64,000 bases of DNA from Nannobrachium achirus. Lineage: Eukaryota; Chordata; Actinopteri; Myctophiformes; Myctophidae. Each line of letters opens with the position of its first letter. The stretch's first letter is position 1. The DNA lies in the NCBI GenBank assembly GCA_963921795.1, contig OY997654.1, positions 4,112,177 to 4,176,176 on the forward strand, given 5' to 3'. Under the pieces are notes generated by a model, which saw only the letters and a list, made by a program, of their open reading frames with translations, did no database searches and had not been told where the DNA came from. Both the position numbers and the translations under genes were made by a program. Below are positions 9,554-62,045 of this stretch, in pieces.

Positions 9554-9626
9554 GGAAATAGCTGACCTCAAAGTTCACAACACGTTGCAGTGTGACACAT
9601 TGTGAGCTTGGAAGTCTGCTATTTTC
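9554..9626. repeat. Hairpin P, diverged copy
   Basis: The left arm GGAAATAGCTGACCTCAAAG and right arm GAGCTTGGAAGTCTGCTATT pair around an ACACG-TTGCAG-TGTGA turn. It matches the P consensus with several substitutions in both arms, so it is an old copy. The host element is not recognised. Confidence 0.55.
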
Positions 9627-9722
9627 AATATTTTCACCAAAAGGCCCCTTTAGGAATGTCAGCCCCTGCCTCTCTAACATTTTCTGCACGTCCCTGGACA
9701 ACAGAGTGAACATAGAGGGCTC

Positions 9723-9952
9723 TATTTTGATTGTCTAAGTAGCAGCTCTTATGCCTTAACTTGAAGTCCATTCTGTCTCCGACCACCAACCTTTCATCGG
9801 AAAGGTCCTGTTCAACTACAAAATGATGTCACTTGCATCTTCTGAAAAGCATTACCTCGAATTAGAGTTCAGAAAGCTGCACGTCAGAAAGTCGGATATG
9901 GACAGGCCTTTAAGTTAAGGCATAAGAGCTGCTACTTAAGACAATCAAAATA
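9723..9952. mobile_element. MITE with long inverted ends, TA-flanked
   Basis: TATTTTGATTGTCT then AGTAGCAGCTCTTATGCC on the left is mirrored by GGCATAAGAGCTGCTACTT then AGACAATCAAAATA on the right. The arms are ~60 bp and the internal part is ~110 bp. TA at both outer edges fits a Tc1/mariner-type target duplication. Non-coding. Confidence 0.65.
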
Positions 9953-10140
9953 CAGCCCAGTCTCATACACAGGGAGAAGATGACAGGACCAACGAATAAA
10001 TGCCCTGCAGCCATAGTGTGTTTACACTTCACCCTACACATGGTCAAACTAAACCAAATCACCTGATATGAGACATACTTCTTTTTTTAAACTGAACTTA
10101 TGAATTCAGACGCCTCAGTCATCTTCATCTTGATGCAAGG

Positions 10141-10173
10141 GCAGTGAATCCGGAACCTTCCCGGATTCACTGC
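10141..10173. repeat. Perfect 13-bp stem hairpin
   Basis: GCAGTGAATCCGG and CCGGATTCACTGC are exact reverse complements separated by 7 bases. There is no T-run after the stem, and no reason in this genome type to call a terminator. Confidence 0.6.
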
Positions 10174-10370
10174 CTCTTTGATTTGATCCGGTACCTTCCC
10201 TGTCAATCAAAATAGTGCTGTTTCAAAATATGTTTTCATCCTTCCAAATAGAGACCTTTTTGGCTGCAGCATTTTTATTTACTTTATATTTTCATGTTTT
10301 TGTTCAATTTCTTGTAATGTTTCTGATGTGGTGCTTATAGGTGACAGTGACACACAATAGACAAGCTATA

Positions 10371-10429
10371 CACACACACACACACACACACACACACACA
10401 CACACACACACACACACACACACACACAC
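10371..10429 (+). repeat. (CA)n microsatellite
   Basis: About 29 uninterrupted CA units. Confidence 0.98.
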
Positions 10430-10589
10430 TTGCTACTGTAGGCTGAGGAGAGAACACAGACAAGTATGTATTTTTTTCTTTTCTTTTTTTCCCCCACCAC
10501 ACAGTGACGTCTACATATAGAACATCAGTGTTTCAGAATGCCAGGCAGCAAGTCAACACATGCTGGTGATGAGCCACTATCACTGCTGG

Positions 10590-10915
10590 TTGGCAGTCAA
10601 TGTGTTCTTAGATGTGTTCTAGGCTGTAAGCTACACTATCATTGTACAGTCAATGTGTTCTAGGCTGTAAGCTACACTATCATTGTACAGTCAATGTGTT
10701 CTAGGCTATAAGCTACACTATCATTGTACAGTCAATGTGTTCTAGGCTGTAAGCTACACTATCATTGTACAGTCAATGTGTTCTAGGCTATAAGCTAAAC
10801 TATCATTGTACAGTCAATGTGTTCTAGGCTATAAGCTACACTATCATTGTACAGTCAATGTGTTTTAGGCTATAAGCTACACTATCACTGTGTACAGTCA
10901 ATGTGGTATAGAATA
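10590..10915 (+). repeat. 41-bp tandem array, ~8 units
   Basis: The unit starts CAGTCAATGTGTTCTAGGCT and continues GTAAGCTACACTATCATTGTA, with a 41-bp period (for example 10,647 to 10,688). Units differ mainly by GTAAGC or ATAAGC. The last unit is degraded (GTGGTATAGAATATAAGC). Confidence 0.92.
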
Positions 10916-11049
10916 TAAGCTACCTGTAATCATGCCATGGACCGTTGGTGGGCTGAAATGAATCACTGGGAAGTCTGAGGTCAAGAAAGGTCACAGGAAA
11001 GACAGTTAGAATGTCAAGAAGGTATCATCATTATTAGGAAATGTGTCAG

Positions 11050-11230
11050 TTTAATGTGTTTACTCACTCATACATGTAATACATCACTATAGTATCAGTT
11101 AACATGAGTTTAATGTGTTTATTCATTACATGTAACACATCACTATAGTATCAGTTAACATGAGTTAATGTGTTTATTCATTACATGTAACATCACTATA
11201 GTATCAGTTAACATGAGTTAACTGATACTA
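11050..11230 (+). repeat. Three-copy ~60-bp tandem repeat
   Basis: Each unit carries TTTAATGTGTTTA or TTAATGTGTTTA, then CATTACATGTAA, CATCACTATAGTATCAGTTA and ACATGAG. The array ends in a short palindrome where AGTTAACTGATACT repeats inverted parts of the unit. Confidence 0.85.
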
Positions 11231-60042: not shown

Positions 60043-60202
60043 CTCTAGCAGGATGAGGAACGGTTCTTCCCACAGGCCACCAGACTGTTAAATAACAATG
60101 AAAAATCAATGTACAATAAGCTATTATGCACTTCCACTGACTGATATTCTTGCCCTGTGTTTATTGAGTGTATTCTAGGTCTTTTTATCATGTTTTTAAG
60201 TT

Positions 60203-60508
60203 TAAGGCATGTGTGAATGTGTCAAATGAATTAACAGACACACTCATGCACGTAGCACAAAAAAGCAGTCCATCTGTAACCAGGTGTGCTTATTTCAATA
60301 AAACAATTGTTGGAAAATGGAAATAAGGCATTTCATTTCTTTATTCTATGTGTACTGTGCAGTGTGCATGCATGGATATGCTATTCATTATCTGGGTTAG
60401 GCAGGCAGTGGACCTAAAGCTATTATTTGTACTAATATAATATTGTTTATCGAGGTATTCAACAACGTTATTGAATATCGGAGGCTTTCCTAATATCGCC
60501 CAGCCTTA
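60203..60508 (+). mobile_element. hAT element (TAAGGC...CCAGCCTTA)
   Basis: TAAGGC is joined to ATGTGTGAATG by an internal deletion. The right end AATATCGCCCAGCCTTA is followed by CTAAACAG. Paralogue of 40,253-40,628. Confidence 0.7.
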
Positions 60509-60683
60509 CTAAACAGTCCACATCATCATAAGCACTGTAACAAGATTATCACTACCTTGATTTTAATTCATTTATTAATGACTTTTATTGAATTGAAAAT
60601 GATATCTCCACTCTGAACATGCATTATTGTAATGTAATGACTGTATTCATAATTCCTATGAACAATAAAGAGATTGATGATCC

Positions 60684-60746
60684 ACTCTCTCTCTCTCTCT
60701 CTCTCTCTCTCTCTCTCTCTCTCTCTCTCTCTCTCTCTCTCTCTCT
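60684..60746 (+). repeat. (CT)n microsatellite
   Basis: About 31 units. The adjoining minus-strand frame with repeated Arg-Glu is an artefact. Confidence 0.98.
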
Positions 60747-61215
60747 GTGGTCCTCAGACGAGCCCTCCATCGTCGCTTCCGGTGCACCATCACTATGACT
60801 GCCTGCATAGATATGTTCCAAACCGACCCCCTCAGGTCTTCTAGTGCAGACCTGCTTGATGTGCCTAATATGGTGAAAAATATGGTGAAGCAGCTTTCTG
60901 CTTCTATGGACCGACAGCCTGGAATAAACTCCCACTATAACTAAGGCAGGCATCCTCTGTGCATAGACCTGTTTCTTCACTCTTGCTTTTAACTGAACTT
61001 TTAAATCCCTGTGCTTTAAAATTCATGTCCGCACTGAAAATGTTTTTTTATGATAGAGTCCTTGCTGATGTTTTATGTTTTTAGACTTTTTACCTTTCTG
61101 CTTTATTGTAATCATTTGTACTTTTTCTGTTAAGCACTTTTCTACTTTGTAAAGCGATTTGAGCTGCATTTCATGTCATGAAAGGTGCTATACAAAAAAT
61201 AAAGTTTTATTATTA
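60747..61215 (+). mobile_element. LINE 3' end (L2/CR1-like), longer copy
   Basis: Same tail as 41,241-41,580 (GACCGACAGCCTGGAATAAA, AAGCGATTTGAGCTGCATTT, GGTGCTATACAAAAAATAAA). It extends ~150 bp further 5' (TCATCGTCGCTTCC-like and GTGCAGACCTGCTTGATGTG). The coding tail has a stop at TATAACTAAG and deletions. Inactive. Confidence 0.75.
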
Positions 61216-61374
61216 TGTACAGTATATAAAGTGAGCTTTAACCAGTAATCTTTACAATAATGTAGGCCTACAGGATACTGCTGGTGTGACTTGTAACGGC
61301 TTCCACCTTCCAAATCACACACAATATGCCACCATCATAACGGCTCCTCCACTCTACTGATGCAGGTGTAGTGA

Positions 61375-61447
61375 TGTGCGGAAGCAGGGATTGAACCCGG
61401 GGATCCCACTCGCCAGACCAACGCTCAAACCGTCGTGCCAGAAGGGC
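61375..61447 (-). mobile_element. tRNA-like sequence, probably a SINE head
   Basis: On the minus strand it has GGCACGACGGTTTGAGCG and then a clean box B, GGGTTCAATCCCTG. The T-arm stem does not pair properly and no cloverleaf acceptor stem forms, so it is not a working tRNA gene. Confidence 0.5.
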
Positions 61448-61511
61448 TGAGCCCGCTTGGCAGGGCTGTTGAGGGCTGCTTCATGGCTGTACTGACTATG
61501 GGGGCTACACA

Positions 61512-61613
61512 GGCATCACTGTGACTATCCTCTGCAGTGTAGGGATCTTAACATCACTGTGACTGTCCTCTACAGTGTAGGGATCTTAACATCACTGTGA
61601 CTGTCCTCTGCAG
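61512..61613 (+). repeat. 38-bp tandem repeat, ~3 units, split by a hAT
   Basis: The unit is CATCACTGTGACTGTCCTCT, then ACAGTGTAGGGATCTTAA. The third unit is interrupted at 61,614 and continues at 62,046. Confidence 0.85.
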
Positions 61614-62045
61614 CAGGGATTTTCAAAGTGGGTGACGGGGCACCCTGGGGTGCCGCGAGATCATTTGATAATATTTGGAATTTATTTGGACACTTGAAGA
61701 AATATGTAGTATCATTTTAAACTTGAAGTACAAAGTTATTTCCAGTCAGTTCTAACCAAAATGGCTGTTATCTCAACATTTTCTTCGCAACATCACTAAA
61801 ATATCGTCACTGTCAGACAGAAACGTCTGTCACACAAAACCAGTGAAAACAGCCGATCTACAAGCATGTAGATCTGCTGTTTTTACTAGTTTAGTACATT
61901 TTATAGATGATAAATACAAAAAGAAAGGTTTTGGACATACAAGGTTTCCACCCAACAACGATGATATTCTATAAATGTAAGGTGCTGGGAGTGAAAAAAA
62001 TATATTTATAGGGTGCCCGGAGACAAAAAAGTTTGGGAATCCCTG
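61614..62045 (+). mobile_element. hAT element (CAGGGATTTTCAAAG ends)
   Basis: Left end CAGGGATTTTCAAAGTGGG, right end AAAGTTTGGGAATCCCTG. Target duplication CTCTGCAG (61,606-61,613) and CTCTACAG (62,046-62,053), 7 of 8; the same difference already exists between units of the host array. It holds a short P hairpin at its centre. Confidence 0.9.
61837..61893. repeat. Hairpin P, loop-less short form
   Basis: AAACCAGTGAAAACAGCCGA, then TCTACAAGC, meets directly ATGTAGATCTGCTGTTTTTA and CTAGTTT. The CTCACAACGCG part and the turn are missing. The outer AAAC-AGT bases mirror each other and match the copy at 13,946. Confidence 0.75.

Follow-up and report, generated by a model that had tools for sequence, protein, structure and literature searches.

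How does one short hairpin come to lie inside transposon families that differ at their ends? The question is raised by a 64,000-nt stretch of Nannobrachium achirus DNA (hereafter the window), in which a palindromic unit, here called P, with the arm core GATCTACAAGCTCACAA, recurs inside hAT-type elements. An earlier note on this DNA had listed nine such hairpins, five single arms and an array of four arms, and had offered a mobile hairpin, exchange of interiors between families or a selected structure as explanations. For comparison, 20 random regions of 10 kb, drawn from contigs C1 to C24 within their first 30 Mb, were analysed together with the window. Judging from the comparison of sequences set out below, the chances seem about even that P is a captured hairpin cassette which families have exchanged and which was amplified along with them, and whose core is constrained in the source elements.

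The recurrence of P is genuine and lies well beyond chance. With up to three mismatches, the arm core occurs at 22 places in the window compared to 0.17 expected, a number equalled by 0 of 100 shuffles. The whole assembly (1.66 Gb) contains the exact arm 122,021 times and a hairpin with two exact arms 18,411 times, while the reversed arm used as control gave 0; the 20 random regions contained 93 arms with up to three mismatches, 11 of them exact, and again no reversed arm. A covariance model trained on 20 of the 22 distinct full hairpins (L018 and L057 8637 were omitted) gave 119 matches in 264 kb at an E-value of 0.01; manual merging reduced these to 61 distinct hairpins, of which the window contributes 10 and the random regions 51. 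Scaled from the random sample, the genome total would be approximately 4 x 10^5 hairpins, a rough figure in which weak matches are included. Exact arm matches in IMG/VR (8) and GTDB (17) were rejected as real P and read as chance, since none has a second arm within 80 nt, and a scan of the window against Rfam at the gathering score gave 0 matches to known structured RNA. All nine hairpins listed before were recovered by the covariance model. Those at 29,831 and 33,061, formerly taken as separate copies, are not independent: the hairpins at 29828-29912 and 33058-33142 lie in a 2,848-bp segment that is present twice with 99.9% identity (29703-32550 and 32933-35780), and they therefore represent one event.

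The full P unit is an 85-nt palindrome with a core of 53 nt (25 + 3 + 25), a core length found in 32 of 64 hairpins paired by exact arms, some of which are counted twice from overlapping loci. Outside the core follow a conserved AAAAYAGC and then 6-7 nt which are palindromic and family-specific, with the variants ACTAGTG, AATTGTG, TTAGCC/TTTGCC, ATAGTGG, CATTTG and TATTGA/TTTTCA. The arm variants (AAGCT, ATGCT, AAGCA) are mostly symmetric and family-specific, and the same holds for the variants of the loop half (CGCCTCGC, CGCGTCGC, AGCGCGGCAC). In the copies used, a change on both sides was observed for 18 of 40 pairs compared to 14.0 in shuffles (reached by 4 of 500), with 7 of the 40 invariant, and the covariation score amounted to 0.295 compared to 0.140 after shuffling (0 of 500) and to at most 0.077 when slid. 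Among 24 unique full hairpins the pairing drops toward background more than about 15-16 nt beyond the core, and the RNA fold of one P copy gave -70.1 kcal/mol with a z of -17.3. At the stem base, position -1 outside the core, an A/C mismatch (AGCA/AGCC) is present in 12 of these 24, from several families.

Arms that match within a hairpin and differ between families could also be the product of gene conversion from arm to arm and from copy to copy, which would keep P uniform with no need for selection or function. The very large number of donors (122,021 exact arms) would favour this process, and so would locus L025, where the right flank repeats about 40 nt of the left one in inverted orientation; this mirror extension agrees with fold-back copying as well and indicates that such copying does happen. 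However, the A/C mismatch has been kept in 12 of 24 hairpins and an arm mismatch has been kept in the family zeta (Greek letters denote flank families and the P type they carry), so that correction is not universal, and the persistence of family-specific arm variants implies that conversion between copies is not genome-wide. As an explanation for the whole pattern, gene conversion is thus judged very improbable.

Concerning the hosts, bounded hAT-type elements were searched in the window and the random regions by an 8-bp duplication together with terminal inverted repeats (TIRs), and rows representing tandem, AT-rich or low-complexity, palindromic-end and P-arm artefacts were removed by hand before counting. 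Of the 24 elements kept, 13 contain a P hairpin, compared to 2.6 expected by random placement (0 of 2000 placements), and 2 more contain a lone arm. This bears out the enrichment in hAT interiors that the earlier note had proposed to check. Two of the nine elements with neither hairpin nor arm once held P, namely W39677, where it is deleted, and L072 3653, where a remnant is left. A separate earlier scan located 12 of the 61 P loci, but 16 of 600 random points, between well-scoring hAT ends. Within the 15 elements P lies at relative positions of 0.31-0.87 (mean 0.57), and this central position calls for no particular explanation, since an insertion close to an end would spoil transposition. 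The hAT families by P type are CAGTGGTTCTCAACC for beta, CAGGGGTCTTCAACG for gamma, TAGGGCTGTCAC for delta, CAGTGGTGGAAAA for epsilon and CAGGGACGTGCAG for theta. Of 1,653 genome-wide candidates for the hAT transposase domain PF05699, 150 matches were scored, none of them tied to any host family.

Assignment of the 61 hairpins by flank similarity, in which the duplicated pair of the window counts twice and a few assignments are weak, gave 32 in hAT families (7 of these via a nested alpha element), 10 in zeta, 6 in alpha alone, 1 in a minor repeat and 12 in no family. Thus, 49 of the 61 lie within repeated flank families, of which at least eight carry P. Alpha is a miniature inverted-repeat transposable element (MITE) of about 255 bp with P in its middle. 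It has TIRs of its own (TCGTC...) and a target duplication in different contexts: TA stands on both sides in 6 of 12 aligned copies and AA on both sides in 3, all from one host family, while in the remaining copies an end is truncated or diverged. It was found alone as well as nested in hATs ending in CAGGGACGTGCTG, CAGGGGTTTTCAAA (given as CAGGGATTTTCAAAG before) and CAGTGTTTCTCAA. Zeta is a TTAA-flanked, possibly piggyBac-like family with one P per terminal region in 4 of 6 aligned copies; TTAA directly adjoins the CCC/GGG end at one end in 3 of the 6 and is two bases off at two further ends, the other ends being truncated or diverged. For the piggyBac transposase domain PF13843, 116 matches were scored of 952 genome candidates, again not tied to any host family. 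At C2:71.35-71.84 Mb, one strand carries sixteen matches to piggyBac-type transposases within 0.5 Mb; open frames of 528-638 aa are present in 15 of these, which possibly form a cluster of tandemly amplified, domesticated genes.

P is therefore not hAT-specific, its hosts being of at least three kinds, and a restriction to hATs does not hold in view of the TTAA-flanked family (10 of 61) and stand-alone alpha (6 of 61). Whether copies outside hATs form a large majority, which the earlier note would have taken as a refutation, depends on the criterion: 29 of 61 are assigned to no hAT family by their flanks, but 48 of 61 count as outside when P has to lie between two detected hAT ends, as it does in the other 13. 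The other refutation it had named, that all hosts go back to a single hAT family and P is simply the interior conserved from it, would agree with hATs as the commonest hosts by flanks (32 of 61). Nevertheless, hosts flanked by TTAA and by TA exist and the flanks of the families cluster separately, which makes such an origin extremely improbable.

When sampled copies were retrieved by their flanks together with 6 nt from the base of the palindrome, they contained P, a P lacking its centre, or a remnant. Counted by the spacing between exact flanks and for these length classes only, 913 gamma copies have 62-92 nt and 86 have at most 30 nt between the flanks; for alpha, 6,165 copies have 70-100 nt and 177 at most 30 nt. 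Near-full P is thus by far the commoner state, from which it seems likely that the gamma and alpha families already carried P when they began to multiply; copies without P are best regarded as having lost it. Most of the short copies listed are mixed deletions which retain pieces of the arms. Recurrent joints among the short gamma copies lie at short repeats inside the palindrome (GATC in at least 9 of 86, ATA in 5 of 86). In alpha, a TAGT direct repeat frames P and exactly one TAGT is left in at least 8 of the 177 short copies, a class that could represent an empty site or a slippage deletion.

For three places in the window, a first reading was rejected. The copy at 31,542 is no P-less ancestor but a deletion, as it keeps one arm end, and the element at 39,677 is likewise read as a deletion, since its P-less beta junction, the only one tested, occurs once in the genome. 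The hairpin at 13948-14030, with the outer palindrome ACTAGTG and among those assigned to no family by flank similarity, had appeared as a lone insertion, but its joined flanks turned out to be repeated. Among 40 scored loci of 236 candidates for this repeat (W13948), both flanks are present with a P-sized gap of 64-82 nt in 36, where P-sized refers to the spacing and the sequence was read at the window copy; one locus has one flank only, and three are continuous with about 41-43 extra nt. These three are older copies with 84-86% identity (C9:13460149, C12:11132213 and C1:9148116), and their additional nucleotides may reflect an earlier, shorter hairpin or a deletion.

These data bear on the assumption that P is mobile on its own and tends to insert into palindromes or the interiors of transposons, a behaviour supposed for mitochondrial GC clusters. 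Its occurrence across superfamilies in at least eight flank families would be expected in this case, and the TAGT frame of alpha with the single TAGT of the short copies could be taken as its footprint. However, no target duplication is common to all, the flanks of the other families being inverted and not direct repeats; the TAGT joint is equally predicted by slippage deletion; the P-less beta junction is a single case; and the apparent lone insertion sits in a repeat family with a P-sized gap in 36 of 40 loci. Neither clean empty sites nor a constant duplication were found, with the TAGT class of alpha remaining ambiguous, and self-mobility of P is considered quite improbable. A related idea, P itself as an ultra-short MITE flanked by TA, was rejected, since it would need a long palindrome as target every time and the short copies give no sign of this.

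Exchange between families was approached by clustering both outward flanks of 82 P loci. The flanks of the P families form separate clusters across which nearly identical arms recur, and most clusters with several members pair with one main partner, some with several. Loci L005 and L008 have the left flank and P in common and diverge from the palindrome edge, whereas L058 and L075 have P and the right flank in common and differ on the left at AAAATAGC. Of the other pairs inspected, L003 and L013 are explained by diverged flanks, L019 and L027 are ambiguous, and L016 has no flank in common with the zeta copy with which it had clustered. Two elements of the window show how hAT-type elements here nest in or merge with each other. 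In the CAGGGATTTTCAAAG element (61614-62045, plus strand, target-site duplication CTCTGCAG/CTCTACAG), P belongs to a nested, TA-flanked alpha MITE and is present as an alpha-type hairpin with deleted centre (61839-61890). In the CAGGGTTCCCAC element at 54656-55193 (plus strand), P arrived with the 3' half of a CAGTGGTTCTCAACC hAT, as a beta-type hairpin with the outer palindrome AATTGTG and the arm variant ATGCT (54851-54935). Accordingly, of the claim that five hAT families carry P, the five ends in the window and the shared interior behind different ends stood, while the CAGGGATTTTCAAAG case proved to be a nested MITE and the CAGGGTTCCCAC case a chimeric interior; some of the exchange of interiors suggested with it was indeed seen.

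An indication that P may be more than a passenger comes from the alpha family. Ten alpha copies from six random regions, retrieved by their flanks and one of them being the query, were compared in those columns that had a majority base and no fewer than 7 letters; the copy of L027/L028, which had been selected by P, was excluded. Compared to the consensus, 5 of 381 cells of the core arms are changed, despite the CpG-rich core, and 102 of 1281 cells of the flanks (p 1.7e-7). For changes found in at least two copies the values are 0 of 381 and 59 of 1281 (p 2.6e-7); since cells of the same column are not independent, both p values are lower than they should be, yet the contrast remains large. 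Shared changes mostly reflect source subfamilies, and it thus appears that the source elements kept the alpha core unchanged as the remainder of the element diverged. This is the sign of constraint that the option of a selected structure would lead one to expect, and the conserved core suggests that P may do something for its carrier transposons.

Several observations weigh against this interpretation. Private changes in alpha differ weakly between core (5) and flanks (43; p 0.036), and the outer palindrome of alpha is not significantly different from the flanks (p 0.11). The test covers one family, which was chosen for carrying P, with ten copies, several of them nested in the same host families. 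In beta, the pooled divergence of the core (0.122) is little different from that of the near flanks (0.138), a result that speaks against core constraint as a general rule; pooled divergence is not used as main evidence, as several sets were chosen via P and the flanks are partly non-homologous. The divergence of gamma was set aside, with 20 of 49 sequences dropped as out of register and small indels inflating the rate. Furthermore, the pairing statistics given above were obtained with copies chosen for two recognisable arms, which favours pairing, clear one-sided breaks were found in 2 of the 5 inspected pairs, and we know of no protein that binds P.

The same observations lead to the possibility that P is a passive hitchhiker, captured by chance by a few MITEs and exchanged by nesting and recombination, so that it would have no function and its abundance would be that of its hosts. 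This would fit the dominance of P-bearing copies in the counted families, the nesting and merging of hAT-type elements, the frequent loss of the P centre, and a beta core that is barely more conserved than its flanks. It would leave unexplained that the alpha core arms show no shared divergence (0 of 381 compared to 59 of 1281) and that families with separately clustering flanks have almost identical arms. Altogether, we regard a purely passive spread as possible but rather unlikely.

If P is instead a captured cassette with a constrained core, the following course can be envisaged. P, carried by many unrelated families of non-autonomous cut-and-paste transposons, would have been captured and handed from family to family through gap filling or a template switch at the palindrome, probably in the course of repair or replication. 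At each capture, the new 3' end would fold back and copy a few bases of the flank, which would create the outer, family-specific palindrome; this palindrome could instead stem from a later correction of the arms. The core arms would be retained in the source elements for their use, in the simplest case as a putative paired binding site or as an extruded hairpin for a host factor, and this putative factor might help transposition or the repair of the excised element. A further step would be to regard P as a parasite of transposons, a nuclear hairpin of specific sequence which is acquired by unrelated superfamilies, raises the amplification of its hosts and passes between superfamilies by template switching, with interiors being exchanged at the same place; we consider this conceivable, though on the unlikely side.

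The remaining features of the window comprise further copies and fragments of P, the hairpins (located with the covariance model) being given without strand. A theta-type hairpin with diverged arms, assigned by its flank family, lies at 9548-9632, and a marginal P-like hairpin, the tenth of the window, at 14904-14988 (E 0.005). An epsilon-type hairpin with the outer palindrome CATTTG (20816-20900) is part of a hAT-type element CAGGCACGTAGGCAG on the plus strand (20368-21065), which has an exact target-site duplication GTTTAAAC and an interior like that of the epsilon-type hAT. A rearranged gamma-type hairpin (28235-28308) is followed on the plus strand by the hAT-type elements TAGGGCTGTCAC (28627-29008, duplication CGCACCAC, one delta-type arm at 28850-28866) and CAGTCGTCTTCAAC (29703-30142, duplication CTATACGT); the latter contains the gamma-type hairpin at 29828-29912. 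The 8-bp duplications of 28627-29008, 29703-30142 and 61614-62045 are exact or one off, and at the CAGGGTTCCCAC ends examined no good 8-bp duplication was seen. Another plus-strand CAGGGTTCCCAC element (31324-31829, duplicated at 34554-35059) has lost most of P, with one arm end left near 31550, and in the TAGGGTATTAACG element with beta-type interior (39677-40109, plus strand) P is missing at an AATA microhomology. At 53943-54026, a weak hairpin shares one flank with L062 3634 according to the flank clusters.

Four of the five single arms noted earlier were found again, namely the delta-type arm at 28850, two arms with gamma-type flanks on the minus strand (38851-38867 and 59179-59195) and an arm with two mismatches and no assigned host on the plus strand (58259-58275, by arm search); the fifth, at 15,169, has more than three mismatches, yet is visible in the sequence. 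The four-arm array proved to be an 89-bp tandem repeat (17811-18180, plus strand) with each P arm placed after ACTAGTSAAAACAGCC. At L016 52-622, a P-like arm lies within a tandem repeat CCTGGTAACTTTAGATATACAAGCTCACAG, so that arrays contain P arms there as well. Apart from P, the spacer 32555-32932 of the duplicated segment is identical to 40195-40572, a second large duplicated pair (35155-38274 and 55439-57863) has main pieces with about 95% identity and includes a 49-bp tandem array, and a 35-bp tandem array with about 53 copies spans 24953-26801.

What lets certain non-autonomous elements multiply when others fail to do so is not yet understood. If P is what we assume, a cassette with a fixed core that occurs together with different transposases would point to a common host step in transposition or repair, and P would be a concrete hotspot of interior exchange between transposon families. 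For annotation, repeats grouped by interior similarity could merge unrelated families at P. Our literature search found neither the arm string nor a description of P, and a name in Repbase or Dfam may already exist. Among known palindromic repeats, MADE1-type mariner MITEs and miRNA-like MITE hairpins resemble P as near-perfect palindromes of about 80 bp with high copy numbers. MADE1, however, is a pair of transposon ends with TA duplications, whereas P has no constant duplication and lies inside other elements.

In animals, TIR elements, above all hAT and Tc/mariner, capture interior DNA via gap filling or fork switching, as described in PMC8277862. The captured fillers of these Pack-TIR elements resemble P in that hAT and other TIR elements take up interior DNA, which transposition multiplied in a few cases; in that work (PMC8277862) the fillers are not derived from transposable elements and are mostly single-copy, while P is the same short hairpin in many families, its exact arms numbering more than 10^5. 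The GC clusters of yeast mitochondria, such as GC42 (PMC4478555), share with P the short palindromic form, the many copies, the merging and the shuffling, but they are organellar and held to be self-mobile, whereas P is nuclear and inside transposons. Similarly, the repetitive hairpin-forming elements of sponge mitochondria (PMC2800124) are hairpins that spread within a genome; they lie in mitochondrial intergenic regions with no transposon as host, while P is transposon-borne. Since captured fillers and nested MITEs are already known, what is unusual about P is the presence of one hairpin in several kinds of transposons at this copy number, together with its apparently fixed core in the family tested, alpha.

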